Below, one piece after another: positions 1 to 24,315 of a DNA stretch of 32,777 bases. The translations under genes and the position numbers were made by a program. Origin of the DNA: a virus. A model generated the notes under the pieces. It was not told the origin of the DNA. It ran no database searches and saw nothing but the letters and a program-made list of their open reading frames with translations. The stretch lies in IMG/VR virus record IMGVR_UViG_3300046011_004995, positions 1 through 32,777 of that record; one strand, written 5' to 3'. The stretch's first letter is position 1. Each line of letters begins with the position of its first letter.

Positions 1-838
1 TCTCGTCTTTGCTATACTTGCAATAGATTCTATTCTTATGATATACGGCTTTGCTCGTAGGCGGGAAGTCGCAAGAAGTAGGGGTTGTGCCACCTTGAAT
101 AGTGCCGTCAATCACACCTTGAGCGACAGGGAGGACGGACACTCCATCAAAGCAAAGGACTGGCTTTGCAACCTGAATGACATAGTCACCAGTATGGTTT
201 GCGAATATAGTGTCAAGTGTGTATGTAAAGGATGTTAAGTTAATTACTGTCTTAACCATGAACGACCCACTTAACTGAGGGTGGTCGGTTTCAATTACGA
301 ACTCACTACCAACCGAAAATCCATGAGGCAATACGCATGTAACTGTTACTTCTGTCGAATTGTTTGTTGAAACCACACGCTGACCAACAGCACCATTTCC
401 ATTTATGTATCCAGTAGCCTCGCCACGAAGGATGTAAGCCTTGCCAGCGGCCTGTATAACCTGTGTCTGGTCTTGGGTAATAGACCTGTAATACTTTGTA
501 TTACTTCCCCCAACTGTTATGTATGGATACTCATACTTGCTTGATATAGCACCACTGCTTATGTTGTATTTATACAGTCCAGTCTCTCCAATAAGAATGA
601 TATTTTCAGTTCCGTCCTTTTCTACATAGACACCTGTTCCATAAATCTTGCCTACAGTTGCCATCGTTCCAGCCTCAAGGAGACGCTTGATGCCCTTACG
701 AACCTGCAATGTCTGCAAGTCCATACGGACATTCTTGGCATCCTGAAGCATGCCAGCCTTAAGCGTGGCAGGGTTGGCTCTGGTATCTACGCCGTAGAAA
801 CCATTGTCTCCATCTAGGGCTCTGTTGGCGTTAGGCAT
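1..838 (-). CDS. Tail structural protein, N-terminal part (runs off left edge)
   Basis: The frame is open for 279 codons from the ATG at 838 to the window edge, so the stop and C-terminus are missing. Near the start it reads GVDTRANPATLKAG and then NVRMDLQTLQVRKGIKRL. This resembles the opening of podoviral tail hub/nozzle proteins with beta-propeller folds (a 'G..r.nP..L..G....N.......R.G' pattern), followed by beta-rich sequence with many G, T, V and Y. The start codon lies two bases after the TAA of the fibre gene, so the two are probably co-translated. There is no Shine-Dalgarno site. A virion tail role is inferred from position and composition; the exact component is not certain. Confidence 0.75.
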   Translation of the reverse strand, partial: MPNANRALDGDNGFYGVDTRANPATLKAGMLQDAKNVRMDLQTLQVRKGIKRLLEAGTMATVGKIYGTGVYVEKDGTENIILIGETGLYKYNISSGAISSKYEYPYITVGGSNTKYYRSITQDQTQVIQAAGKAYILRGEATGYINGNGAVGQRVVSTNNSTEVTVTCVLPHGFSVGSEFVIETDHPQLSGSFMVKTVINLTSFTYTLDTIFANHTGDYVIQVAKPVLCFDGVSVLPVAQGVIDGTIQGGTTPTSCDFPPTSKAVYHKNRIYCKYSKDE

Positions 839-11686: not shown

Positions 11687-11750
11687 AAAAAAAACCCTCT
11701 TACACCCCCCCTCCCCTCTTTTATATAGGGTGCAGGGGTCATGTAAGGGG
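11687..11750 (-). terminator. Leftward terminator ending the small-gene array
   Basis: In minus-strand RNA, CCCCTTACA at 11742-11750 can pair with TGTAAGAGGG at 11695-11704 (one bulged A). Inner C-runs (CCCC, CCC) face a GGGGAGGGGGGG tract, and eight T follow at 11687-11694. The T-tract and long GC-rich arms support an intrinsic terminator between early/accessory and late transcription. Confidence 0.65.
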
Positions 11751-11762
11751 TTTCAGGGGTGA

Positions 11763-13689: not shown

Positions 13690-13695
13690 GAGGTC

Positions 13696-13725
13696 GTTAT
13701 CCAGATGGAGGGAGGGGGGTGTCAA
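13696..13725 (-). promoter_or_regulatory. C-tract promoter P8 (leaderless)
   Basis: -35 TTGACA at 13720-13725, 18-bp spacer beginning CCCCCCTCCCTCC, -10 GATAAC at 13696-13701. Only GACCTC separates the -10 from ATG, placing the predicted +1 on the A of the start codon. Confidence 0.86.
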
Positions 13726-13727
13726 GG

Positions 13728-13979
13728 TTAGTGGGCAGAGGGGTTGCAAATCTTGCGGTGATTATCAGGCAGGAGCATGGCGGCGTAAGTACCATCATTA
13801 TAGGGGTGGATGTAATTAGTTTCAGTAATCACATAATCCTTATTAGGGTACTTACGCAGACGCTCAATCTCTGCATCTTCCCATGTGGGGAATACCGCAG
13901 ATTTACTGTCAATCAACGCAGGGGAGTTGTGTCCCTCAGGTTTGTGGGTAATGGCGAATACATGGAGCGGTTTGGTCAT
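13728..13979 (-). CDS. Unknown 83-aa protein
   Basis: A small alpha/beta protein: MTKPLHVFAITHKPEGHN, then AVFPTWEDAEIERLRKYPNK with a helix, then DYVITETNYIHPYNDGTYA. The 'F.TWEDAE..R.RKYP.KDY.I.E' core is typical of small phage proteins that I cannot place in a named family. The ATG at 13979 follows the -10 of P9 by 7 nt. No membrane segment or metal motif. Confidence 0.77.
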   Translation of the reverse strand: MTKPLHVFAITHKPEGHNSPALIDSKSAVFPTWEDAEIERLRKYPNKDYVITETNYIHPYNDGTYAAMLLPDNHRKICNPSAH

Positions 13980-13986
13980 GGAATTC

Positions 13987-14016
13987 GTTTTAAGGGCTGA
14001 GGGAGGGGGGTGTCAA
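13987..14016 (-). promoter_or_regulatory. C-tract promoter P9 (leaderless)
   Basis: -35 TTGACA at 14011-14016, 18-bp spacer beginning CCCCCCTCCCTC, -10 TAAAAC at 13987-13992. GAATTCC separates -10 and ATG (7 nt). Confidence 0.87.
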
Positions 14017-14161
14017 GGTCAGCCAAAAGGGGTGTGGGACGGCTTCACAATATGCTATCTGTGCGGTATGGGCAATGAATCCATATCTTTCTGACTCATA
14101 TGTGTCTGCTCTTTATAACAGAATGCACTCCGAATGCATTCGTATCCCACTTATGTATTTG
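14017..14161. other. Non-coding gap with inverted repeat
   Basis: This is the longest gap within the small-gene array. The only minus-strand ORF is a 14-codon one from ATG 14099, not convincing. An inverted repeat GAATGCA (14121-14127) / TGCATTC (14135-14141) is present, with the 12-bp palindrome CGAATGCATTCG at 14131-14142. It has no T-tract, so it is not a classical terminator. Two TGCA cores 11 bp apart recall the spacing of the origin iterons. Confidence 0.5.
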
Positions 14162-14485
14162 TTACACCGACTTTTCCGTGGCGGTCACCACAACCGCAGG
14201 GAAATAATTGCCACGCTTATCAGCGAGTTCATTCTTAGCAATTTCAAAGACTTCAGACAGTTCGATGCGGTGAGACCACAGGCCGTAATCGGTAACCTCA
14301 GTGCGGAGGTAATCATAACCGATAGACTTATAGGAATCAGGAGCATCACTGATGCGGGTGATAAGTTCCGTGGCGGACGCATAGTGATTAATATGCGTAG
14401 TGCCGACAATATTCTCGTGCTTCTCGCTATCCCACTTGAGATAGGTCGTAGTGAGGGTGAAGTAAACTTTCTTGTTGTTGCTCAT
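14162..14485 (-). CDS. Unknown 107-aa protein
   Basis: A beta-rich protein, likely one domain: MSNNKKVYFTLTTTYLKWDS, then THINHYASATELITRISDAP with a helix, then DYLRTEVTDYGLWSHRIELS and a final AVVVTATEKSV strand. It has no Cys and no membrane segment. The ATG at 14485 lies 24 nt after the -10 of P10, in a leader of C and A residues with no Shine-Dalgarno site. Function unknown. Confidence 0.78.
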   Translation of the reverse strand: MSNNKKVYFTLTTTYLKWDSEKHENIVGTTHINHYASATELITRISDAPDSYKSIGYDYLRTEVTDYGLWSHRIELSEVFEIAKNELADKRGNYFPAVVVTATEKSV

Positions 14486-14509
14486 GGTTAGTATGGGGTT
14501 GAGGAATTC

Positions 14510-14539
14510 GTTTTAGGGTTGGAGGGAGGGGGGGGTCAA
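14510..14539 (-). promoter_or_regulatory. C-tract promoter P10
   Basis: -35 TTGACC at 14534-14539, 18-bp spacer beginning CCCCCCTCCCTCC, -10 TAAAAC at 14510-14515, then GAATTCCTCAACCCC in a 24-nt gap to the ATG. The upstream stop ends four bases before the -35. Confidence 0.86.
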
Positions 14540-14543
14540 GTTC

Positions 14544-14882
14544 TCATTCCTTCTGTGAGGTTCGCCATTCAATCGGGGTGTATTCGCTTTTAAGGGCGGA
14601 TACCAGATTGAATCTGCTGGCCTTGGATTGCTCAGGATAGGTGAAGTCCCTATCGAGAGTCCATCCACGCTCTTCTGCATATGCTTCTACTTCCCACCTA
14701 CGATTTGCGAGCATCTGAAAGATTTCTTCATCTTCCACGACACCGCTTTCATAGATATCGAACAGTTGGGCATAGTAACCTGCGGCTACACGATACTGAG
14801 CGTCTTCTTGCTCTTCAGTGTACCTATACTTCATGCAGATGAAGTCTTGAATTTCACGGAGCGAATGAGGATTGAGGGGCAT
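14544..14882 (-). CDS. Unknown 112-aa acidic protein
   Basis: The start at 14882 (MPLNPHSLREIQDFICMKY) follows the -10 of P11 by 6 nt; the longer frame upstream is promoter and a neighbouring gene. The product is mostly helical with many Y and E residues (EEQEDAQYRVAAGYYAQLFD, then MLANRRWEVEAYAEERGWTL). It ends in a short basic segment. No motif points to a function. Confidence 0.77.
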   Translation of the reverse strand: MPLNPHSLREIQDFICMKYRYTEEQEDAQYRVAAGYYAQLFDIYESGVVEDEEIFQMLANRRWEVEAYAEERGWTLDRDFTYPEQSKASRFNLVSALKSEYTPIEWRTSQKE

Positions 14883-14888
14883 GGAGTC

Positions 14889-14918
14889 CTTATGCCGATG
14901 GAGGGAGGGGGGTGTCAA
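14889..14918 (-). promoter_or_regulatory. C-tract promoter P11 (leaderless)
   Basis: -35 TTGACA at 14913-14918, 18-bp spacer beginning CCCCCCTCCCTCC, -10 CATAAG at 14889-14894; GACTCC then ATG. The upstream gene is translated through the whole promoter and its TAA stop (14890-14892) lies inside the -10 hexamer. Confidence 0.87.
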
Positions 14919-15108
14919 CATCCTTGCTTTCCGCTTTCTCCTGCTCTTCGATTGCAGAATCGAATGCCCAATAGGCATCACATGTATCAGAGTATAGCAT
15001 ATCAAGAGATGTTTGAGATGCATTCTGAGTAGATTCCTGTAAACGCCTTGAGCGAGTTAAAACTTTATGCAAGATATCTAACGCCTCACGCAGTGCGGGA
15101 TTATTCAT
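14890..15108 (-). CDS. Unknown 72-aa protein with promoter-encoded tail DTPLPPSA
   Basis: The ATG at 15108 (MNNPALREALDILHKVLTRS) was chosen because it overlaps the stop of the preceding gene by 8 nt and has GGAG nine bases upstream, one of the few Shine-Dalgarno-like sites here. The body is a helical, Ser/Gln-rich protein. The final DTPLPPSA is promoter P11 in translation. It forms a two-gene unit with the 89-aa gene from promoter P12. Function unknown. Confidence 0.72.
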   Translation of the reverse strand: MNNPALREALDILHKVLTRSRRLQESTQNASQTSLDMLYSDTCDAYWAFDSAIEEQEKAESKDVDTPLPPSA

Positions 15109-15370
15109 CGTCAGAATCTCCGAATTCGACATTGGTGACAGCCAGCAGGAAACCAAGGGCTTGGTCATAATCCTCAGCGTGTTCATTAACTACAGCGGAG
15201 ATGCGGTCAGCCACCTGCTTATCGACCTTACGCCAGCCTTTAGATACAGCACCAATAACACTGAAGATATTACCATCAATCTTGAAGTTAACCACAGGAT
15301 ACGCCTCCTTAGGGATAGTATCAGGGATTTGCAGGTGCTTAATCATTTCCGTCAGTTTTGCATTACTCAT
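15101..15370 (-). CDS. Unknown 89-aa protein
   Basis: The protein starts MSNAKLTEMIKHLQIPDTIP and has a central beta segment (AYPVVNFKIDGNIFSVIGAV). A helix follows (DKQVADRISAVVNEHAEDYD), and the C-terminus is acidic (FGDSDDE). The alternation suggests a compact alpha/beta fold. The ATG at 15370 lies 34 nt after the P12 -10, the longest gap in the array. The stop overlaps the next gene. No family recognised. Confidence 0.77.
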   Translation of the reverse strand: MSNAKLTEMIKHLQIPDTIPKEAYPVVNFKIDGNIFSVIGAVSKGWRKVDKQVADRISAVVNEHAEDYDQALGFLLAVTNVEFGDSDDE

Positions 15371-15404
15371 GGGTTGGTATGTTGGGTTGGGGGTTGAGGA
15401 ATTC

Positions 15405-15434
15405 GTTATGCAGATTCAGTGGGGGGGGTGTCAA
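15405..15434 (-). promoter_or_regulatory. C-tract promoter P12
   Basis: -35 TTGACA at 15429-15434, 18-bp spacer beginning with eight C then ACTG, -10 CATAAC at 15405-15410. The upstream gene reads through (LDTPPTESA) and its TAA at 15406-15408 is inside the -10. A 34-nt leader region with GAATTCCTCAACCCCC follows. Confidence 0.84.
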
Positions 15435-15924
15435 GTGCCTTGGCTTTGGCCTTGGCATCGAGCATCTCCTGATAGATTCGGTCGGCCTGAGTAATATCGA
15501 ACTTAGCGATATTCTCCTTGGCTTCCTGAACAGTATACTTGAATTCATAGGGACGGATTTCACTCATCTTAATGAATCGCTTATTCCACGCAGTGCGGGA
15601 CAAGTGAGAGACATTAGTATCCAGACCCCAATAGCGGATTACGGATTCAAGGTTGGTATAGACAGTACGATGATTCTCGCCGTCATATAGCGAGTAAGAC
15701 ATAAGACAGCCGATGCCTTTAAGGAGATTAAGCCTACGCTCAATCTCAATGAGAACATCTTCAGTCATTTCGCCTGTCAGGTTATGCTGGATGTGCATCG
15801 TGCTGAAGATGAGGCATTCAAGTTCGACTTGCATCGAACAAGAGCCGTCTTCCTTGATATCCTTATACATTAGGTGCTTCTTGTTATTCAAGAAGTCTTC
15901 AGGCATTTTCCAATTGAGTGACAT
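15406..15924 (-). CDS. Unknown 172-aa protein with promoter-encoded tail
   Basis: The largest protein of the left part of the array. It contains a helical core (LECLIFSTMHIQHNLTGEMT, then DVLIEIERRLNLLKGIG), followed by YSLYDGENHRTVYTNLESVI and a charged helical C-terminus. The end, LDTPPTESA, is encoded by promoter P12. The pattern 'helix, TEDVLIEIERR, G..' is reminiscent of small phage proteins found in T4-like genomes, but I cannot name one. The ATG at 15924 is 31 nt after the P13 -10. Confidence 0.8.
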   Translation of the reverse strand: MSLNWKMPEDFLNNKKHLMYKDIKEDGSCSMQVELECLIFSTMHIQHNLTGEMTEDVLIEIERRLNLLKGIGCLMSYSLYDGENHRTVYTNLESVIRYWGLDTNVSHLSRTAWNKRFIKMSEIRPYEFKYTVQEAKENIAKFDITQADRIYQEMLDAKAKAKALDTPPTESA

Positions 15925-15955
15925 ATGGTAGTGTTGGGTTGGGGTTGAGGAATTC

Positions 15956-15985
15956 GTTTTACTGAGGGAGGGAGGGGGGTGTCAA
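15956..15985 (-). promoter_or_regulatory. C-tract promoter P13
   Basis: -35 TTGACA at 15980-15985, 18-bp spacer beginning CCCCCCTCCCTCCC, -10 TAAAAC at 15956-15961, then GAATTCCTCAACCCC in a 31-nt gap to ATG. The upstream gene stops at the TGA of TTGACA. Confidence 0.87.
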
Positions 15986-16224
15986 GGTCGGTGACAGAAG
16001 CCCCCATCAATCAGGTTTTGTGCGGTTCGCTGATGAGAACCCTGCAAGGTATAGATGATACCACTATTGATAAGAGTCTGGTAACAACTAACCATAGCAG
16101 AATGGTCGCATCCGTTTTCAATCATCATGATAGCATCGAGTGCGTCATGTATGTCTAACTGAGTCTCTTGAAGAAACTCGCCTTCATCAAATTGCTTTTC
16201 GCCACGCTTGTTTAGTTTGCTCAT
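15982..16224 (-). CDS. Unknown 80-aa protein, stop inside P13
   Basis: MSKLNKRGEKQFDEGEFLQE is a charged start. An acidic helical stretch with Met-Met follows (LDIHDALDAIMMIENGCDH), then a mixed C-terminus with two further Cys-containing segments (VSCYQTLINSG and GGFCHRP). Metal binding is not obvious. The ATG at 16224 is 6 nt from the P14 -10, so the mRNA is predicted leaderless. Function unknown. Confidence 0.77.
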   Translation of the reverse strand: MSKLNKRGEKQFDEGEFLQETQLDIHDALDAIMMIENGCDHSAMVSCYQTLINSGIIYTLQGSHQRTAQNLIDGGFCHRP

Positions 16225-16230
16225 GGAATC

Positions 16231-16260
16231 GTTTTAAGGTTTAGGGGAGGGGGGTGTCAA
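16231..16260 (-). promoter_or_regulatory. C-tract promoter P14 (leaderless)
   Basis: -35 TTGACA at 16255-16260, 18-bp spacer beginning CCCCCCTCCCCT, -10 TAAAAC at 16231-16236, GATTCC then ATG. The upstream TAA ends one base before the -35 hexamer. Confidence 0.87.
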
Positions 16261-16261
16261 G

Positions 16262-16474
16262 TTATTGGAAATCGACAACACAGTCAGGACATACAGAGAT
16301 ATCCTCAAGGCACAGGTCTTTTCCAATTGCAGTACAGTCGTAGCGATTACCGCCTAAATGACTACCGCAACATTCGCATGGGCTCTTAGAGAAATATGGC
16401 TCAAACCATTCTCCTTTAGAATCCTCATTAGGTACGAGCATAAACCTATGCTCAGATAGAAGATTTGGCTTCAT
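16262..16474 (-). CDS. Small Cys-rich (zinc-finger-like) protein, 70 aa
   Basis: From the ATG at 16474 the product is MKPNLLSEHRFMLVPNEDS followed by CECCGSHLGGNRYDCTAIG and a final CPDC. The two Cys-x-x-Cys pairs plus intervening Cys suggest a zinc-binding treble-clef or ribbon fold. This CGS.L.G.RY pattern is familiar in small phage proteins of unknown function. A longer frame from TTG 16591 would add a hydrophobic segment but runs antiparallel to the pattern of first-ATG usage, so I prefer 16474. The start overlaps the 38-aa gene by 23 nt. Confidence 0.72.
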   Translation of the reverse strand: MKPNLLSEHRFMLVPNEDSKGEWFEPYFSKSPCECCGSHLGGNRYDCTAIGKDLCLEDISVCPDCVVDFQ

Positions 16475-16568
16475 TGATAATGTTGCGGTTTCTGCTACGA
16501 ACATAGCGTTTCTTCGTTTTGAACGCCACAGTCGGAGGAGGTAAACGCTTACGATAAGTAATACGCAT
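16452..16568 (-). CDS. Very small basic protein, 38 aa
   Basis: This frame begins at the first ATG after promoter P15 (gap 25 nt). It encodes MRITYRKRLPPPTVAFKTK and then KRYVRSRNRN, a strongly basic peptide with a short hydrophilic end. It overlaps the zinc-finger-like gene in another frame, and translational coupling between the two is likely. Such basic peptides often bind nucleic acid. Confidence is limited by its length, but its position obeys the array's rule. Confidence 0.5.
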   Translation of the reverse strand: MRITYRKRLPPPTVAFKTKKRYVRSRNRNIINEAKSSI

Positions 16569-16591
16569 AGTGATTTGGTTGTTGTGTCCAA

Positions 16592-16816
16592 TCAATCTAA
16601 GGACTCAGGGTGGGGGGGGTCAAGTTCGACTTCAACAAGCCTTCCATCAACATTCTGACGGACAGTGAGGTTTTCTCCGTTGTTAACCTTGATTTCATTT
16701 TTAGTAATGAACTGCTTAATCCAAGCATTCATGTATTTATCCTGTGCTTCCTGTGCGGTTTCTGCTTCAATAGCAAATTCTACATAGAGCGTTTCAGTAA
16801 CAAGGTATTTAGGCAT
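16592..16816 (-). CDS. Unknown 74-aa protein with promoter-encoded tail
   Basis: MPKYLVTETLYVEFAIEAET then AQEAQDKYMNAWIKQFITK: a beta strand followed by the 'EAETAQEAQDKY' helix, a common design in tiny phage proteins of beta-alpha-beta-beta type. The end LDPPHPESLD is promoter P15 in translation, with the stop TGA at the edge of the -10. It is the third gene of the operon from promoter P16. The ATG at 16816 lies in an A-rich leader without a Shine-Dalgarno site. Confidence 0.76.
   Translation of the reverse strand: MPKYLVTETLYVEFAIEAETAQEAQDKYMNAWIKQFITKNEIKVNNGENLTVRQNVDGRLVEVELDPPHPESLD
16594..16623 (-). promoter_or_regulatory. C-tract promoter P15
   Basis: -35 TTGACC at 16618-16623, 18-bp spacer beginning CCCCCCACCC, -10 TAGATT at 16594-16599. 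This is the most divergent -10 of the array. The upstream gene runs through the whole promoter. Confidence 0.7.
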
Positions 16817-16831
16817 TGTGTTTATTGGGGG

Positions 16832-16993
16832 TTAAAGGTCGCAGGTGTCCTTGATATCTTCAAGGAGAACTTTAGGGTCATAAGAACCATTAGCAATATC
16901 TGCAATTACTTCTTGGTAATCTTCATATGTTGCATCAGTTCCCATCCATTGTTCTACTTCTTGCCAAGTAATTGGCTTTTTCTTTTTAGGCAT
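16832..16993 (-). CDS. Unknown 53-aa acidic protein
   Basis: The start at 16993 overlaps the stop of the 95-aa gene as ATGCCTAA. The product MPKKKKPITWQEVEQWMGTD is basic only at its very start; the rest is acidic and helical (TYEDYQEVIADIANGSYDPK) and ends in TCDL. The K-rich start and W-x-E-V helix could mediate protein contacts. The two flanking overlaps support it as a real gene even though it is short. Function unknown. Confidence 0.68.
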   Translation of the reverse strand: MPKKKKPITWQEVEQWMGTDATYEDYQEVIADIANGSYDPKVLLEDIKDTCDL

Positions 16994-17273
16994 AGGTTTT
17001 ATTGATTAGGGTTTGGAGTTCTTTGGTGTTGAGAGATTGGCACTCAAACCACGGATGTAGTTGAGTCTTGTGCCTTGATGTAGTGGCACTGTACTTGTCT
17101 GAGTTCTGATACCATTTAGTATCAAAGCCAGACCAGACAAAGATAGGGAAATGTAATCCATAAGAATAGACTACATAGTTACCATTTACCCAGCGTCCAA
17201 AGGTATTGCTACCTACGAACTCTTTTCGGTCTTGCACAAACTGTCGTGCATTTGCATTGGATGTTTTGGTCAT
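16986..17273 (-). CDS. Unknown 95-aa aromatic-rich protein
   Basis: A single beta-rich domain with an unusual density of aromatic residues (FGRWVNGNYVVYSYGLHFPI, then WSGFDTKWYQNSDKYSATTS) and a helical C-terminus (NTKELQTLINKTYA). It lacks a signal peptide. It is the first gene of a three-gene operon whose ATG is 6 nt after the P16 -10, with two downstream genes overlapping or closely spaced. No family recognised. Confidence 0.78.
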   Translation of the reverse strand: MTKTSNANARQFVQDRKEFVGSNTFGRWVNGNYVVYSYGLHFPIFVWSGFDTKWYQNSDKYSATTSRHKTQLHPWFECQSLNTKELQTLINKTYA

Positions 17274-17279
17274 GGAATC

Positions 17280-17309
17280 GTTTTAGGAATTGAGGGAGGG
17301 GGGTGTCAA
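17280..17309 (-). promoter_or_regulatory. C-tract promoter P16 (leaderless)
   Basis: -35 TTGACA at 17304-17309, 18-bp spacer beginning CCCCCCTCCCTC, -10 TAAAAC at 17280-17285, GATTCC then ATG. The -35 directly follows the CATCAAC arm of the structured element at 17310-17374. Confidence 0.87.
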
Positions 17310-17374
17310 GTTGATGAAAAAGGGCGATAGCCATTTCAGACTACCGCCCTAAAACCTTTCGGTTTTACATCAAC
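17310..17374 (-). terminator. Structured terminator / possible small RNA element
   Basis: In minus-strand order: GTTGATG (17374-17368), a GAAA-loop hairpin AAAACC/GGTTTT (17366-17351), then a 10-bp hairpin AGGGCGGTAG / CTATCGCCCT with one G-U pair (17350-17321), four T, and CATCAAC (17316-17310). The last seven bases pair with the first, so the two inner hairpins can form a three-way junction. The second hairpin plus T-tract looks like an intrinsic terminator isolating the 136-aa gene from P16. Confidence 0.65.
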
Positions 17375-17419
17375 ACAACAATAATAACCGACACTAACGC
17401 CGACAGGCTACCACACCTG
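17375..17419 (-). other. 3' untranslated region after 136-aa gene
   Basis: No gene. A 6-bp hairpin GACAGG (17416-17421) / CCTGTC (17402-17407) starts at the stop codon of the 136-aa gene; it lacks a T-tract. The rest is AT-rich and leads into the structured terminator. Confidence 0.5.
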
Positions 17420-17830
17420 TCAGAGATTCTTCTTAGGCTTTTTAGCCTTTTTGGGCTTATTAACCTTCTTCTGGAGGGCTTTGATATCCTCATTAAGCAG
17501 GGCAATCGCTCGGTCAAACTGACCAAACTTAACATGGTCTTCGAGAGCGGATTCAATACAAGAATCAACGGCTTCGCCAATCTTATCATCCACTTCATCA
17601 GTGGTGCTGTATTCCTGACTCAGAAAGTCAGTATCAACAAACTGACTGAAGTCGTAGTCGCTCAGGGGGCTGAAGTCGTAGTCATCAGGGTCAAAGTCAG
17701 ACTTAGAGATATAGTCATTCTCTTCAGGCTTTTCATTGACCTTGTCGATGAGGTCTGCGATTTCACAGTGCGTGAGCCCTGTGACCCAGAAACAGAACTT
17801 GTTACGAATGTAGAGGAGGGGGTTGGTCAT
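17420..17830 (-). CDS. Unknown 136-aa acidic protein with Lys-rich tail
   Basis: The N-terminus is mixed (MTNPLLYIRNKFCFWVTGLT). The centre is intensely acidic with a repeated DYDFS motif (SDFDPDDYDFSPLSDYDFSQ). A helical part follows and the C-terminus is a basic NKPKKAKKPKKNL tail. The acidic D/Y/F-rich stretch may mimic DNA or bind a basic protein surface, as several phage anti-host and DNA-mimic proteins do; this is inference only. The ATG at 17830 is 7 nt after the P17 -10. A terminator follows. Confidence 0.8.
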   Translation of the reverse strand: MTNPLLYIRNKFCFWVTGLTHCEIADLIDKVNEKPEENDYISKSDFDPDDYDFSPLSDYDFSQFVDTDFLSQEYSTTDEVDDKIGEAVDSCIESALEDHVKFGQFDRAIALLNEDIKALQKKVNKPKKAKKPKKNL

Positions 17831-17837
17831 GGAGTTC

Positions 17838-17867
17838 TTTTTATTTGAGGTGGGAGGGGGGTGTCAA
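17838..17867 (-). promoter_or_regulatory. C-tract promoter P17 (leaderless)
   Basis: -35 TTGACA at 17862-17867, 18-bp spacer beginning CCCCCCTCCCACC, -10 TAAAAA at 17838-17843, then GAACTCC and ATG. The upstream stop ends three bases before the -35. Confidence 0.86.
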
Positions 17868-17870
17868 GTC

Positions 17871-18362
17871 TCAGCCGAAGCGGATTTCGCCAAGGAAGGC
17901 ATACTGAAAGAGAGCATCATCAGTAACAGCATCACCGCTGGAGGGATAATCACGACCAAGAAGGAATTCAGCAAAGTGAACTCGCAGGTGGAGGGGCTGA
18001 GTGTCATCATTGACGAACTTAATCATCTTGTTGTGAAGCCATTCAGCATTCACACGGATGTAGTCAGTGATATCATTCTCTTCATCCCACATGGCAAAGT
18101 CCACATAGAGGTCGATGTAGGCGTTCTTACCTTCTTCGGTTTTAGCCTTATCAGACGCTTCATTATAGGCTTTGATTTGCTCCTTGGTGTTGGCCTTCCA
18201 GCCCCAAGAGTCTCCACCAAGACCACCCTCGATAGAGGTAGTCACGATAGACCACAGGTGGTCTGCATAGGCAGGGGTGATATCTTCCTTATAGAAAGTC
18301 AGGTGATGCTTTCGGCTGGAGATGATGATTTCGTTCGGGTCGGCTTTGGTCGTAGTTTTCAT
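17871..18362 (-). CDS. Unknown 163-aa protein
   Basis: An acidic soluble protein. Distinct parts are EIIISSRKHHLTFYKEDITP, then HLWSIVTTSIEGGLGGDSWG, an alpha-helical, charged middle, and a C-terminus ending ALFQYAFLGEIRFG. Trp and Gly positions (GGDSWGWK) suggest a real folded domain. No membrane segment, signal or metal motif. The ATG at 18362 lies 8 nt after the P18 -10 (TAAAAA). Function unknown. Confidence 0.8.
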   Translation of the reverse strand: MKTTTKADPNEIIISSRKHHLTFYKEDITPAYADHLWSIVTTSIEGGLGGDSWGWKANTKEQIKAYNEASDKAKTEEGKNAYIDLYVDFAMWDEENDITDYIRVNAEWLHNKMIKFVNDDTQPLHLRVHFAEFLLGRDYPSSGDAVTDDALFQYAFLGEIRFG

Positions 18363-18370
18363 GGGAGGTC

Positions 18371-18400
18371 TTTTTATGGTTGGGGGGAGGGGGGTGTCAA
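18371..18400 (-). promoter_or_regulatory. C-tract promoter P18 (near leaderless)
   Basis: -35 TTGACA at 18395-18400, 18-bp spacer beginning CCCCCCTCCCCCC, -10 TAAAAA at 18371-18376, GACCTCCC then ATG (8 nt). The upstream stop is two bases before the -35. Confidence 0.86.
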
Positions 18401-18402
18401 GT

Positions 18403-18639
18403 TCACAGGTTTAAGCCGTTTCCTTGGCGTAGAACTTTCTGAATGTCTTGCTGTAGTTTAAGATACTTATCAAGACGCTCACGATGTTGTACGGCTTGTT
18501 CGCCTTTAGGCATGGCTTTTTCCATATTTAGGATAACAAAAGTAAGAGATACAATCTCTGTTTCAACAACAGTCTCTGCATCAGTAAGCACATTAAGTGC
18601 ATGCTCAAGGACTATTTCAATCATAGGGTTATGTGCCAT
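18403..18639 (-). CDS. Unknown 78-aa helical protein
   Basis: The ATG at 18639 follows the TAA of the preceding gene by one base, so the two are coupled; the longer upstream frame overlaps that gene and is not used. The product is helical and amphipathic (MIEIVLEHALNVLTDAETVV, then ERLDKYLKLQQDIQKVLRQG), likely a helical hairpin or coiled coil. No family recognised. Confidence 0.72.
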   Translation of the reverse strand: MAHNPMIEIVLEHALNVLTDAETVVETEIVSLTFVILNMEKAMPKGEQAVQHRERLDKYLKLQQDIQKVLRQGNGLNL

Positions 18640-18640
18640 A

Positions 18641-18991
18641 TTATTCTTCGGTGATTTCGTTATGTTTAATATTATCTGCAAGTTCAGCACAGAGCGAGAA
18701 GTCTTCGTTGAGTTTTTCAAGCACAAGATTCTGTAGTGCTTCTATGTCAGTCCACATAAGGATGTGGAACTGATACTCACTCTGCTCTTCCATTTTGCAA
18801 TGGTCGAACTCAACGGATTCAAACTCAGCGTACCATTGGTCATCTCTCTCCTGAGAGCCCCAATATTCAAATTGGCCTATGCCACCATTGAAGATTTCAT
18901 ATACAGCCTTGCCACTAATGATGTAGCATGCACCTGCATATGTAACCTTCAGGTCGTGGAAGGTGTGCGTGTATGTTTTCTTATCGCTCAT
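18641..18991 (-). CDS. Unknown 116-aa protein
   Basis: The ATG at 18991 (MSDKKTYTHTFHDLKVTYAG) overlaps the preceding stop by 11 nt; a TTG one codon earlier is possible. The protein is beta-rich at the N-terminus (YIISGKAVYEIFNGGIGQFE), has a Trp-rich centre (YWGSQERDDQWYAEF) and ends in a helix (IEALQNLVLEKLNEDFSLCA). It is the middle gene of a three-gene operon from P19. Function unknown. Confidence 0.77.
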   Translation of the reverse strand: MSDKKTYTHTFHDLKVTYAGACYIISGKAVYEIFNGGIGQFEYWGSQERDDQWYAEFESVEFDHCKMEEQSEYQFHILMWTDIEALQNLVLEKLNEDFSLCAELADNIKHNEITEE

Positions 18992-19226
18992 CAATGATAT
19001 CGGTGCAAATCATGTCGAGGATTTCAGAGTATACATCAAGCATACCGCTGTGGAATCGCTCATAGATTTCATCCTTTTCTTCTTGGGTGAACTCAGTTCC
19101 GTTATCATTAGCCTTCTCTTCTAGGTCAGCGTCTACAAGCAAGAACGCACACATGCTATACTCTTTAGTAATCTTTTGAATCTTGTCGATTGCTTCCGAC
19201 TGTGATTTGTTGGGTTTGTTTGGCAT
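18981..19226 (-). CDS. Unknown 81-aa acidic helical protein
   Basis: MPNKPNKSQSEAIDKIQKIT continues into an acidic helical domain (EFTQEEKDEIYERFHSGMLD, then SEILDMICTDIIDER). Cys residues at both ends are not in a metal-binding arrangement. The ATG at 19226 is 9 nt from the P19 -10. It heads a three-gene operon whose promoter starts right at the 3' end of tRNA-Ile. No family recognised. Confidence 0.76.
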   Translation of the reverse strand: MPNKPNKSQSEAIDKIQKITKEYSMCAFLLVDADLEEKANDNGTEFTQEEKDEIYERFHSGMLDVYSEILDMICTDIIDER

Positions 19227-19235
19227 CAGGAATTC

Positions 19236-19265
19236 GTTTTAAGGATGGGGGGAGGGGGGTGTCAA
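19236..19265 (-). promoter_or_regulatory. C-tract promoter P19 abutting tRNA-Ile
   Basis: -35 TTGACA at 19260-19265, 18-bp spacer beginning CCCCCCTCCCCCC, -10 TAAAAC at 19236-19241, GAATTCCTG then ATG. A single base separates the -35 from the encoded CCA of tRNA-Ile. Confidence 0.87.
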
Positions 19266-19266
19266 G

Positions 19267-19342
19267 TGGTTGGCATGGAGGGAGTCGAACCCTCGACTTA
19301 GCCCTTATAAAGAGCCCACTCTAACCGCTGAGTTACATGCCA
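19267..19342 (-). tRNA. tRNA-Ile (anticodon TAT), CCA encoded
   Basis: A full cloverleaf: acceptor TGGCATG/CATGCCA, D-stem ACTC/GAGT, anticodon arm GGCTC-TTTATAA-GGGCT with two G-U pairs, and T-arm GAGGG-TTCGACT-CCCTC, then A and CCA. The anticodon UAU reads AUA, a codon often rare in bacteria. The encoded CCA is followed one base later by promoter P19. Confidence 0.9.
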
Positions 19343-19416
19343 GAAATAGGTCGGCCCTCGGAATTTGCTATCAGTTATATTCCTCTTGGCCTTGGGTTAA
19401 TTACGCCCCATTATAG
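19343..19416 (-). other. Spacer between tRNA-Thr and tRNA-Ile
   Basis: This spacer is tRNA-sized, but no T-loop motif or acceptor pairing is present, so no fifth tRNA is supported. It may be processing spacer or a decayed tRNA. Confidence 0.5.
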
Positions 19417-19491
19417 TGGAGCCCTGTGTTGGGGTTGAACCAACGACCTTCTGTTTACAAAACAGACGCACTACCGCTGTGCTAACAGGGC
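19417..19491 (-). tRNA. tRNA-Thr (anticodon TGT), CCA encoded
   Basis: Acceptor GCCCTGT/ACAGGGC, D-stem GCAC/GTGC, anticodon arm TCTGT-TTTGTAA-ACAGA, T-arm GTTGG-TTCAACC-CCAAC, discriminator T and encoded CCA. The anticodon UGU reads ACA. All four stems pair without mismatch. Confidence 0.93.
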
Positions 19492-19494
19492 AAA

Positions 19495-19566
19495 TGTCCC
19501 ATGGAGGAATCGAACCTCCATTGATGGATTAGAAATCCACTGTTCTATCCGTTGAACTAATGGGAC
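19495..19566 (-). tRNA. tRNA-Arg (anticodon TCT)
   Basis: Acceptor GTCCCAT/ATGGGAC, D-stem GTTC/GAAC, anticodon arm GTGGA-TTTCTAA-TCCAT with one G-U pair, T-arm GGAGG-TTCGATT-CCTCC, discriminator A. The CCA is not encoded. The anticodon UCU reads AGA. It lies three bases upstream of tRNA-Thr. Confidence 0.92.
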
Positions 19567-19571
19567 GAAAG

Positions 19572-19643
19572 CATCAGGGGGTGGGGTCGAACCACCGACT
19601 CACGCATTAACAGTGCGTTGTTCTACCACTGAACTACCCTGAT
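19572..19643 (-). tRNA. tRNA-Asn (anticodon GTT)
   Basis: Acceptor ATCAGGG/CCCTGAT, D-stem GTTC/GAAC, anticodon arm ACGCA-CTGTTAA-TGCGT, T-arm GGTGG-TTCGACC-CCACC, discriminator G. No encoded CCA. The anticodon GUU reads AAC/AAU. It is the first tRNA after the 70-aa gene, eight bases beyond its stop, so the cluster is probably cut from the same transcript. Confidence 0.93.
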
Positions 19644-19651
19644 AAAGTCGT

Positions 19652-19864
19652 TTAAGCCTTTACGCTGTTAGCCAGCGACAGGACGGCGGCATCACGAACC
19701 TTTCGGTGTGAGCGGAACTGACGCTGATTGTTGGCGTTGGCGGGATAGCCAATCTTAGGGTCAACGCATAAAGCCTTGAGGGCTTCAAGTGCTTCTGCAT
19801 TGTCTTTAAGTTGCGGGTATGCAAGAAGATACTTCTCGACTCGGTTAATTTCTCTTTGGTTCAT
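19652..19864 (-). CDS. Unknown 70-aa basic protein
   Basis: MNQREINRVEKYLLAYPQLK begins a helical, basic protein that continues NAEALEALKALCVDPKIGYP and ends RSHRKVRDAAVLSLANSVKA. The spacing suggests two or three helices, possibly nucleic-acid binding. Its ATG overlaps the TGA of the 151-aa gene (ATGA), so translation is coupled. The tRNA cluster follows. Function unknown. Confidence 0.76.
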   Translation of the reverse strand: MNQREINRVEKYLLAYPQLKDNAEALEALKALCVDPKIGYPANANNQRQFRSHRKVRDAAVLSLANSVKA

Positions 19865-20316
19865 GGGATTTGGATAAAAATAGTGTTGTCCGCTTGGATG
19901 TAGCCTTTGAGCGGGTTTTCGATTTGGATGTAGTCTTTAATCTTGACGCTTACGCAATGCTCCTGCTTGGAAACAGGAATCATGTCGATGAACATGCCCA
20001 CAAACTCACGACCTACAGACTCAGGATTGTTTTCACAATCTTCGATACAAAACGCCATCTTGCAGTCAAGTGTTACTTGCGTAACAGGAAAGCGTGAATC
20101 GTCTATAATTATCGGGTTGGTGTTTGTGAGTTCGGTCACAAGCATAAGAGGCACAGCGTCTTGCTTGCCAAAACAACGCAGGATATGCTTTTTCATCGTG
20201 GCATTGATGCGGGTTTTGATTTGTCTGTCAGTAAGTTCGTTGCCGTTAAGGGTGTACACACACTTAAAAACAGCCTCCATCATGAGACACGCCCTGTCGG
20301 TTATATTGTTGGTCAT
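19861..20316 (-). CDS. Unknown 151-aa protein
   Basis: A soluble beta-rich protein with a helical start (ITDRACLMMEAVFKCVYTLN) and a long beta section (PVTQVTLDCKMAFCIEDCEN, then QEHCVSVKIKDYIQIENPLK). Six Cys residues are scattered with no clear metal site. The ATG at 20316 is 7 nt after the P20 -10, with GGAG directly before it that cannot serve as a normally spaced Shine-Dalgarno. No family recognised. Confidence 0.78.
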   Translation of the reverse strand: MTNNITDRACLMMEAVFKCVYTLNGNELTDRQIKTRINATMKKHILRCFGKQDAVPLMLVTELTNTNPIIIDDSRFPVTQVTLDCKMAFCIEDCENNPESVGREFVGMFIDMIPVSKQEHCVSVKIKDYIQIENPLKGYIQADNTIFIQIP

Positions 20317-20323
20317 CTCCGTT

Positions 20324-20353
20324 CTTATATAACAGGGGGGAGGGGGGTGTCAA
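20324..20353 (-). promoter_or_regulatory. C-tract promoter P20 (leaderless)
   Basis: -35 TTGACA at 20348-20353, 18-bp spacer beginning CCCCCCTCCCCCC, -10 TATAAG at 20324-20329; AACGGAG then ATG. RusA is translated through the whole promoter (LDTPLPPVI), with its TAA at 20325-20327 in the -10. Confidence 0.88.
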
Positions 20354-20837
20354 GAGGCATTCCAGTCCAAGGGTCTTTGTTCGCTTCAGTAATTATTACA
20401 TCAACAAACGGCCCCTTCCAGTGGAAGTACTTAGACACAGACAGGGATACCACATTAGAGTCATCGACTATGTAGTCGGAGTCGGTAAGAGCGTCCAGCA
20501 CAGACTTAACAAGGTTGTCACAGTCAGGGCGTGTAACCTTGGCTTCGATAATCATAATGCCGTGGTTCTTTCTCTTCTTGCCTTCATCTATGTGCTTCTT
20601 GAGCAATGGGTAACCAAAGTTAACAGTCACACGCAAAGAGCCACCAAGGGGGGTTTCGGGCTTCCACTTATTTAGTAAGAGCATAAACGCATGCTTCCAT
20701 TTAACGGCACTGCTCGTAGACATTTTGCCAACGAACATTTTACCGCTTTTTCGATTTTTTAGCACACGCAGTGCGGACTGGTGTGTGGGCGGCGGGTCTA
20801 TTGGGACTCTAATATTGACTATCTTGGGTACGCTCAT
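20325..20837 (-). CDS. rusA: RusA-type Holliday junction resolvase
   Basis: This 170-aa protein matches the RusA endodeoxyribonuclease family. RusA enzymes cut four-way DNA junctions as dimers, using Mg2+ held by acidic residues. The signature is clear: TRPDCDNLVKSVLDALTDSD with D105 and D107, then YIVDDSNV with D125/D126. The N-terminal strand (VNIRVPIDPPPTHQSAL) fits the fold. At 170 aa it is longer than E. coli RusA (120 aa). Its last nine residues, LDTPLPPVI, are promoter P20 in translation. It lies downstream of the 33-aa membrane peptide gene, overlapping it as ATGA. It would clear branched DNA before packaging. Confidence 0.93.
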   Translation of the reverse strand: MSVPKIVNIRVPIDPPPTHQSALRVLKNRKSGKMFVGKMSTSSAVKWKHAFMLLLNKWKPETPLGGSLRVTVNFGYPLLKKHIDEGKKRKNHGIMIIEAKVTRPDCDNLVKSVLDALTDSDYIVDDSNVVSLSVSKYFHWKGPFVDVIITEANKDPWTGMPLDTPLPPVI

Positions 20838-20935
20838 CGGCGTTGACCAGTTACTCCTTCAATGATTGTGGCAAAGACAGTGTACACTGCACATACAGCG
20901 ACTCCTAGAACGATAGTGGCAAAGGTGTTTTTCAT
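20834..20935 (-). CDS. Very small membrane peptide, 33 aa
   Basis: The ATG at 20935 is 8 nt after the P21 -10. The product MKNTFATIVLGVAVCAVYTV then FATIIEGVTGQRR is a single transmembrane helix with a basic C-terminus, so an inner-membrane peptide with the C-terminus inside is likely. Its stop overlaps the rusA start as ATGA. Such peptides often act on host membrane proteins or in lysis inhibition, but the role here is unknown. Confidence 0.68.
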   Translation of the reverse strand: MKNTFATIVLGVAVCAVYTVFATIIEGVTGQRR

Positions 20936-20943
20936 CAAGGTCG

Positions 20944-20972
20944 TTATACAGTTGACAGGGGGGGGGAGTCAA
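20944..20972 (-). promoter_or_regulatory. C-tract promoter P21, interlocked with rightward -35
   Basis: -35 TTGACT at 20967-20972, 17-bp spacer beginning with eight C, -10 TATAAC at 20944-20949. A rightward TTGACA (20953-20958) lies inside its spacer, forming the inverted arrangement TTGAC-A-G8-A-GTCAA. Confidence 0.82.
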
Positions 20973-20980
20973 GTACCATC
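20953..20980 (+). promoter_or_regulatory. Candidate rightward early promoter
   Basis: TTGACA at 20953-20958 is a perfect -35. The best -10 is TACCAT at 20974-20979 (15-bp spacer), leaving 7 nt to the ATG at 20987. The -10 and spacing are poor, so activation may be needed. Its -35 lies within P21, so both cannot be occupied at once. Confidence 0.4.
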
Positions 20981-20986
20981 AGTCCC

Positions 20987-21448
20987 ATGGAATATGAGCC
21001 CAAGAAGGAACTGATTAGAAACAACCAGCACCACAGCAACGCAAAGAACATTGAGCCTGAGCGTAGGAAGAAGTGTGAAGAGATGCTTTCGCAGGGCGTT
21101 ACAAGGGATGAGATAGTCAAGGCTACTGGCCTGTCTGAGCATAGCATATCCGCAATCAAGGGCGATATGACAGGTCTGTCTGATAAGGACTGGAAGACTA
21201 ATATGGCTAACATCATGAAGAACGCTGGCATGAAGGGTGCGAACAGACTTAATAATGAGATTGATAACATACATCCTAACTTCCTTCCGACTGCTCTTGG
21301 TATTATCATTGATAAAATTGCTGTGCTTCAAGACCAGCCTACCGCAGTAATCGAGCATCGCATCCAGAGGATTTCGCAAGACGATATCAATAAGATGCTT
21401 AAGAGCGAAGTTGTTATCGACATACAGTCTGACGAATCTGCCACTTGA
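20987..21448 (+). CDS. HTH DNA-binding protein, first rightward gene
   Basis: This 153-aa protein has an N-terminal helix-turn-helix: ERRKKCEEMLSQGVTRDEIV then KATGLSEHSISAIKGDM at residues 25-61. The C-terminal half is helical (NFLPTALGIIIDKIAVLQDQ, then AVIEHRIQRISQDDINKML). Proteins of this layout in phages are transcription regulators or terminase small subunits. As the first gene rightward from the interlocked promoters it may be the switch regulator, or a small terminase used late. Its stop is the TGA inside the -35 of promoter P22, the same nesting as on the other strand. Confidence 0.82.
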   Translation: MEYEPKKELIRNNQHHSNAKNIEPERRKKCEEMLSQGVTRDEIVKATGLSEHSISAIKGDMTGLSDKDWKTNMANIMKNAGMKGANRLNNEIDNIHPNFLPTALGIIIDKIAVLQDQPTAVIEHRIQRISQDDINKMLKSEVVIDIQSDESAT

Positions 21449-21474
21449 CACCCCCCTCCAGTTGTCGGTAGGGT
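21445..21474 (+). promoter_or_regulatory. C-tract promoter P22 (plus strand)
   Basis: -35 TTGACA at 21445-21450, 18-bp spacer beginning CCCCCCTCC, -10 TAGGGT at 21469-21474, 7 nt to ATG 21482. The TGA in TTGACA ends the HTH gene. The -10 is weak, suggesting activation or lower strength. Confidence 0.75.
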
Positions 21475-21481
21475 GCTGGTG

Positions 21482-22933: not shown

Positions 22934-22963
22934 TTGCATCCCCCCTCCCTTGTCCGTTATAAG
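22934..22963 (+). promoter_or_regulatory. C-tract promoter P23 (plus strand)
   Basis: -35 TTGCAT at 22934-22939, 18-bp spacer beginning CCCCCCTCCC, -10 TATAAG at 22958-22963, 19 nt to ATG 22983. It restarts transcription just after the terminator. Confidence 0.82.
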
Positions 22964-23801: not shown

Positions 23802-24308
23802 ATGAAACGATTCCTTAGCCTATTCGCAACCTCCCTCTTCGGTATTTCCACTGAAGCCAAGACTATCGACATGACTGACTTCATGGATAGGCTTGCAATC
23901 ATTGAGTCTAATGGCAACTACAAGGCCGTTGGAGACAATGGAAAAGCCATCGGCATGTACCAAATGCATGAAGAGGCATATAAAGACGCACTTGCATATG
24001 TTCGCATCAAAGGAGATGGCATCCATGAACTTCTTCATGCCGCCAAGCGTGGCAAAGATTGGAAGAAAGACCTTGCTGACCCTGATTACGCTAGGTACTT
24101 TGCCGTAGCATATGTTCACATTATTGTTGATAGACTTATTAAAGACAAGCAAGAAGTCACTCCTCTCAAGATATACATGTGCTACAACATGGGATATCGT
24201 CAGGCTAAGTCCTACGGCTTTGACCCTAAGCACCAGTCGCTGACTTCTGCCAGAAGAGTAACGCTTAAGCGAGCCTCGATGGTACTTGCGTCCCCCCTCC
24301 CTCGATAA
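23802..24308 (+). CDS. Secreted lysozyme / transglycosylase-like endolysin
   Basis: This 168-aa protein has an N-terminal signal-like segment (MKRFLSLFATSLFGISTEA) with a likely cleavage after A19. The catalytic region is an SLT-like domain: IIESNGNYKAVGDNGKAIG with E35 as the likely catalytic acid, then MYQM. A helical remainder follows with YMCYNMGYRQAKSYGF. It would cleave peptidoglycan at lysis. The last residues (ASPLPR) are encoded by promoter P24. It begins directly after a terminator T-tract, with no Shine-Dalgarno site. The holin and candidate spanin are on the opposite strand. Signal-mediated export or SAR behaviour is inferred. Confidence 0.82.
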   Translation: MKRFLSLFATSLFGISTEAKTIDMTDFMDRLAIIESNGNYKAVGDNGKAIGMYQMHEEAYKDALAYVRIKGDGIHELLHAAKRGKDWKKDLADPDYARYFAVAYVHIIVDRLIKDKQEVTPLKIYMCYNMGYRQAKSYGFDPKHQSLTSARRVTLKRASMVLASPLPR

Positions 24309-24315
24309 GTATAAC
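24286..24315 (+). promoter_or_regulatory. C-tract promoter P24 (plus strand)
   Basis: -35 TTGCGT at 24286-24291, 18-bp spacer beginning CCCCCCTCCCTC, -10 TATAAC at 24310-24315, 18 nt to ATG 24334. The lysozyme gene is translated through it and stops at TAA 24306-24308 inside the spacer. Confidence 0.83.

Follow-up and report, generated by a model that had tools for sequence, protein, structure and literature searches.

Short promoter-to-start-codon gaps in a uniform phage promoter array predict leaderless or near-leaderless mRNAs

Can a promoter lie so close to its gene that the mRNA would have almost no leader, or none at all, ahead of the start codon? The question is raised by a virus record of 32.8 kb (32,777 nt; IMGVR_UViG_3300046011_004995), the whole of which is called the window here. 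Terminase, major head, and tail genes occupy its left side and replication/recombination genes its right side; a leftward block of small genes spans 11.9 to 21 kb, and the same promoter element precedes most of them, with one further copy and two variants pointing rightward (Table 1). A first-pass annotation had proposed that eleven of these promoters (P8, P9, P11, P14, and P16 to P22), with 6 to 9 nt between the -10 hexamer and the ATG, give leaderless or near-leaderless mRNAs. The gaps were borne out when all sites were remeasured by script, and positional, comparative, and host-group evidence supports the reading. We put at about 0.75 the probability that the short-gap genes make leaderless or near-leaderless mRNAs in a phage independent of Shine-Dalgarno (SD) sites, with the transcription start predicted from sequence.

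Table 1. Promoters and associated features of the window. Positions run from -35 to -10 for promoters; the gap is the number of nucleotides between the -10 and the ATG, and labels beginning with G or L denote related phages, followed by their gaps in nucleotides.
Feature	Position	Strand	ATG	Gap (nt)	Remarks
P1-P7	11928..13509; -35 starts 11957, 12206, 12431, 12652, 12886, 13178, 13509	-		16-22	CACCAC-type leaders
P8	13696..13725	-	13689	6	gap gacctc; one lineage only
P9	13987..14016	-	13979	7	G004 6, G003 14
P10	14510..14539	-	14485	24	CAACCC-type leader; G004 8, L016 9, G003 24
P11	14889..14918	-	14882	6	G004 and G003 also 6, gap sequence differing
P12	15405..15434	-	15370	34	CAACCC-type leader; G002 34, G004 29, G003 7
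P13	15956..15985	-	15924	31	CAACCC-type leader; G002 and G004 31, G003 35
P14	16231..16260	-	16224	6	G002 and G004 6, G003 16
P15	16594..16623	-	16568	25	38-aa ORF; left unclassed at first pass
P16	17280..17309	-	17273	6	G002 7, G003 9; terminator directly upstream in all three
Intrinsic-terminator-like hairpin and T-run	17321..17350	-			just upstream of P16; 12 pairs; ends beside P16 -35
P17	17838..17867	-	17830	7	G002, G003, L153 7-8
P18	18371..18400	-	18362	8	G002 8, G003 12
P19	19236..19265	-	19226	9	G002 9, G003 6, L153 9
P20	20324..20353	-	20316	7	G002 7, G003 7, L240 6; L153 6 if second ATG used
P21	20943..20972	-	20935	7	33-aa ORF; G002, G003, L240, L153 7-8
Gene for 153-aa protein	20987..21448	+			weak HTH (transposase-type) match; at array hinge
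P22	21445..21474	+	21482	7	replication-initiation O-like gene; G002, G003, L240 7; L153 9, L162 10
P23 (TTGCAT variant)	22934..22963	+	22983	19	Erf-like gene
P24 (TTGCGT variant)	24286..24315	+	24334	18	exonuclease-like gene

The array comprises 24 near-identical promoters, the 22 listed at first pass and two added here (P23 and P24); every site lies just 5' of an open reading frame (ORF), and the structural gene block has none. The elements run in the order TTGAC plus A, T, or C; a C-tract; an 18-bp spacer; and a TATAAC or TAAAAC-like -10, and the spacer measured exactly 18 bp in 22 of 22 listed sites and in both added variants. With up to two mismatches allowed, TTGACACCCCCCTCC was found in 21 copies, against a mean of 0.04 in shuffled sequence. 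Compared with the sigma-70 type, the -35 is near perfect and the spacer is 18 bp, while the -10 is mostly TATAAC or TAAAAC; a strict sigma-70 scan, with T required at the last -10 position, showed no excess over expectation in the window because most -10s end in C. The array resembles promoters through a consensus of its own and not through the strict Escherichia coli one. Two promoter families occur among related phages, A (TTGACA-CCCCCCTCC) and B (TTGACC-ACCCCACCCC); a scan for a third (TTGACA..TGCTATACT) returned just three matches, which looked unrelated.

The distribution of -10-to-ATG gaps is two-humped. Under a null in which gaps are uniform over 6 to 34 nt, the 24 window sites give a P value of ~1e-4 for at least 11 gaps of 6 to 9 nt and of ~0.004 for none of 10 to 15 nt. 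Relatives were collected by pattern search and protein search. Among 73 non-redundant sites of the two families, which share ancestry and so are not independent events, 35 gaps measured 6 to 10 nt (9 of 6 nt, 13 of 7, 5 of 8, 7 of 9, and 1 of 10), only 5 measured 11 to 15 nt, and 33 measured at least 16 nt (18 of 16 to 20 nt and 15 longer). None of the 73 was shorter than 6 nt, three sites with doubtful starts having been reread or dropped by hand: where gaps of 0 to 5 nt appeared in L153, L162, and L240, a second in-frame ATG stood at 6, 11, and 13 nt; P20 of L153 was entered as 6 nt by judgement, the second start at P24 of L240 is favored by orthologue alignment, and P24 of L153 and of L162 was excluded from the counts as ambiguous. 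Beyond the short gaps, the first-pass annotation had described CACCACC-type leaders with gaps of 16 to 22 nt at P1 to P7 and CAACCCC leaders with gaps of 24 to 34 nt at three others, which are P10, P12, and P13. Both descriptions held on remeasurement, but the two look like versions of one CA-rich leader, leaving two leader modes in place of the three classes proposed.

Comparison among related phages shows that the short gap is conserved. For P17, P19, P20, P21, and P22, a gap of 6 to 10 nt is kept in family B phages despite different promoters and gap sequences (at P20, aacggag, ccaaata, and ccaata across phages); within family A, the P11 gap is exactly 6 nt with the sequences gactcc, aagtcc, and gatttt. 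The short peptide encoded downstream of P21 is itself 55 to 85% conserved among relatives. Related phages differ in leader mode for P7 (17 nt in the window, 7 nt in L016), P9, P10, P12, and P14, and more weakly for P18. The leader mode of a gene is not fixed, then: with about six genes in one mode in some lineages and in the other mode elsewhere, the two modes look interchangeable over evolutionary time.

The translation context is SD poor throughout. In nearly all start regions examined, late genes included, anti-SD pairing was no better than that of random 20-mers, and many regions were worse; scores of -5 to -6 kcal/mol at P11, P20, and P22 lie inside the random 20-mer range. Bases +4 to +18 of the short-gap class are 80% A+C and 5% G, the last 20 bases before the ATG of the leadered class are 79% A+C, and in both classes the start region folds more weakly than the gene interior. 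Counting from position 5 after the -10, the first pyrimidine-purine step falls at positions 7 to 10 in all 23 near sites and coincides with the A of the ATG in 14 of them. If transcription starts the customary 7 nt or so beyond the -10, the predicted leader is 0 to 3 nt long; since the -10s mostly end in C and not T, this spacing may not hold exactly, and here the argument from distance is weakest.

From these features we infer a mechanism in which the host RNA polymerase probably transcribes the array as a coordinated set of phage promoters, each serving roughly one to three small genes. Transcription from eleven of them would begin some 7 to 10 bp past the -10, on the start codon or no more than about 3 bases from it. 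The mRNA would then open with 0 to 3 nt and the AUG, and the bases next to the AUG on its 3' side would be rich in A and C, poor in G, and weakly folded. Ribosomes would then start on the 5'-terminal AUG, that is, by leaderless initiation without the usual landing site. The remaining promoters would place an unstructured, CA-rich leader behind the same core, giving initiation that is leadered but likewise SD independent.

Two other accounts of the short gaps have to be weighed. If the true start codons lay further downstream, the genes would have ordinary leaders. All 11 short-gap genes begin with ATG, and most have an in-frame stop codon close upstream with no alternative start between; the P8, P21, and P22 genes have upstream TTG or GTG codons, and the clearest exception is the P11 gene, whose reading frame is open upstream, through the promoter. 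This open frame and the further Met codons of several genes leave room for later starts, but in comparisons with related phages most orthologues line up starting at the first Met, several at 48 to 79% identity, and in some lineages four near-class genes lack any later Met; downstream starts are scarcely credible. Alternatively, the promoters may work but most translation of the short-gap genes may come from mRNAs that began at promoters further upstream and read through, the gap reflecting only compact packing. The promoters are tandem and co-oriented, and an upstream stop codon is often just a few bases away from the -35. Strong terminators between promoters are few, and most promoters other than P16 have none upstream, so that read-through transcripts with long leaders may coexist. 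Packing alone, however, leaves the sharp 6-nt lower limit and the sparse 11- to 15-nt range unexplained, and the terminator ahead of P16 is conserved in its fold across three lineages; G003 retains fold, T-run, and short gap with a different stem sequence. With this conserved terminator directly 5' of it, the P16 gene probably relies on its own near-leaderless promoter. We regard read-through as the main route to these proteins as unlikely.

The TTGACA-C-tract might also serve mainly as the operator site of a repressor or activator made by the phage, like the stoperators of cluster A phages, with promoter activity secondary. The L5 stoperator GGTGGMTGTCAAG, which reads CTTGACAKCCACC on the other strand, is much like CTTGACACCCCCC (PMC3029335), and the spacer sequence is uniform inside one phage lineage and different between lineages, as if following a trans-acting factor, at which this uniformity hints. 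Against this stand the location of the sites, outside the structural block and just 5' of ORFs, and the -10 at exactly 18 bp in every one; with 24 of 24 so equipped, none lies away from a promoter, and membership among the stoperators was rejected. A mainly operator function is very improbable, although the two roles are not exclusive, and an operator role may add to leaderless expression from these promoters and not replace it. The 153-aa HTH-like protein encoded at the hinge, 77 to 98% conserved across both promoter families, is a candidate regulator only. The phage records, which are fragments, gave no match to the single-subunit polymerase domain PF00940, for which the control also matched nothing; six such fragmentary records gave none to sigma-70 region 2 (PF04542), with the control working.

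The host is probably a freshwater or estuarine member of the Verrucomicrobiota. Terminase comparisons point to this phylum and the wider PVC group: bacterial genomes yielded eight confirmed relatives, seven from the PVC group (Verrucomicrobiota, Pontiellaceae, and Lentisphaerae) and one from a Flavobacteriaceae MAG, and the nearest of them, at 51%, belongs to a Pedosphaera MAG. Some Verrucomicrobiota have been classed as SD scarce in a published survey (PMC10783764). In the Pedosphaera MAG (327 genes, with starts from a simple ORF caller), TANNNT stands 5 to 9 nt before the ATG 34 times, against 8.2 expected, and half of these sites, in this one MAG on which the signal with a -35 rests, have TTG 16 to 19 bp upstream (peak 17), against 15% elsewhere. 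The MAG shows the arrangement TTG-N17-TANNNT-5..9-ATG, like the phage, with SD-like motifs no commoner than background. In-frame stop codons likewise produce TA 6 and 9 nt before the start; a comparison with TANNNV addresses them as a cause, and the test was also made with the -35. A small sample from a second, Delaware Bay MAG gave 7 TANNNT sites against 1.6 expected, but without the -35, and an SD-using Verrucomicrobiota genome, an Opitutae MAG, and a mixed sample had no TANNNT excess. The C-tract with a strict -10 (last base T), a pattern that also misses most phage sites, had no copies in four PVC genomes. The host-group signal supports leaderless expression in the phage by analogy, through a host that is itself predicted.

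A -10-like TA signal about 12 bp before the start codon is the published signature of bacterial leaderless genes (PMC3160421). These "TA-led" genes and mycobacterial leaderless translation (PMC4633059) resemble the phage genes in this hexamer position, in a predicted transcription start at the start codon, and in having no SD site; they differ in that the promoters here, predicted from sequence, belong to a single uniform family arrayed in a phage, whose host phylum the leaderless survey does not appear to cover. SigA-like promoters of cluster O mycobacteriophages (PMC4351075) and P90 of Adephagia (PMC11373665) also have a predicted +1 at the downstream start codon, or one making it leaderless, but they are few per genome, whereas here eleven of 24 occur in one array of an SD-poor phage from another phylum. 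The start-associated and extended start-associated sequences of cluster K (PMC3203893, PMC11373665) are likewise repeated noncoding elements before many small genes, a subset of them with -35 and -10 hexamers 17 to 18 bp apart; there, however, the start-adjacent element is downstream of the promoter and thought to be translational, whereas in the window it is the promoter that adjoins the ATG. Cluster A (L5) operators and stoperators (PMC3029335, PMC9283540) share with the array many asymmetric copies oriented with transcription, a CTTGACA-like core, and lineage-specific variants, but stoperators are also intergenic without a promoter, whereas all sites here have a -10 at fixed spacing and the one regulator proposed is a candidate. 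The novelty lies in the setting: an SD-poor phage, from a host group that has been little studied, with a single promoter family that takes two interchangeable forms.

A wider reading, which we offer tentatively and at less than even odds, is that a clade of Verrucomicrobiota phages expresses its nonstructural genes through one promoter family, in leaderless and CA-leadered forms that flip in evolution and with essentially no SD; that a phage factor tracks the C-rich spacer; and that some bacteria of the host group make sizeable use of leaderless genes. The related phages would offer a ready-made comparison: a single promoter core would drive the leaderless version of a gene in one phage and its leadered version in another, and the bacteria concerned make, in part, hardly any use of SD sites. 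With such a set one can test directly under what circumstances a leaderless start is preferred and whether leaders only a few nucleotides long are avoided. The array also points to leaderless genes in some Verrucomicrobiota.

Both the array promoter type and a second type occur among relatives of the phage. At the two sites where right-facing promoters of the window have TTGCAT and TTGCGT as their -35 elements, the related phage sequence L240 has TTGACA. The second family, TTGACC-ACCCCACCCC, is present in the related phages L016, L153, and L162, where it likewise has an 18-bp spacer and precedes orthologues of window genes. The 33-amino-acid ORF at promoter P21 is kept in five phage contigs at 55 to 85% identity and is therefore, as judged from sequence conservation, probably a real small protein. 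The -35 element of P19 lies one base away from the 3' end of the tRNA-Ile gene.

Features at and beside the array promoters
Feature	Position	Strand	Location
33-aa ORF	20834-20935	-	downstream of P21
tRNA genes (n = 4; Ile, Thr, Arg, Asn)	19267-19643	-	
Array-type promoter, -35 TTGCAT	22934-22963	+	upstream of Erf-like gene
Array-type promoter, -35 TTGCGT	24286-24315	+	upstream of exonuclease-like gene

At ~11690-11760, 3' of the gene that ends the array, is a C-rich/G-rich, promoter-like stretch with the potential to fold on itself; at the matching position in the relatives L235 and G005, a TTGACA-C-tract site is followed by a G-rich run. This stretch may be a terminator that arose from a copy of a promoter.

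In the Pedosphaera metagenome-assembled genome used for host-group comparison (G011; L113-L132, L272-L310), a -10-like hexamer lies 5 to 9 nt upstream from ATG in ~10% of the genes that could be tested, and half of these also have TTG ~17 bp upstream; no Shine-Dalgarno enrichment was seen among the tested genes. Together, these features constitute a predicted leaderless-gene signature within a Verrucomicrobiota genome.
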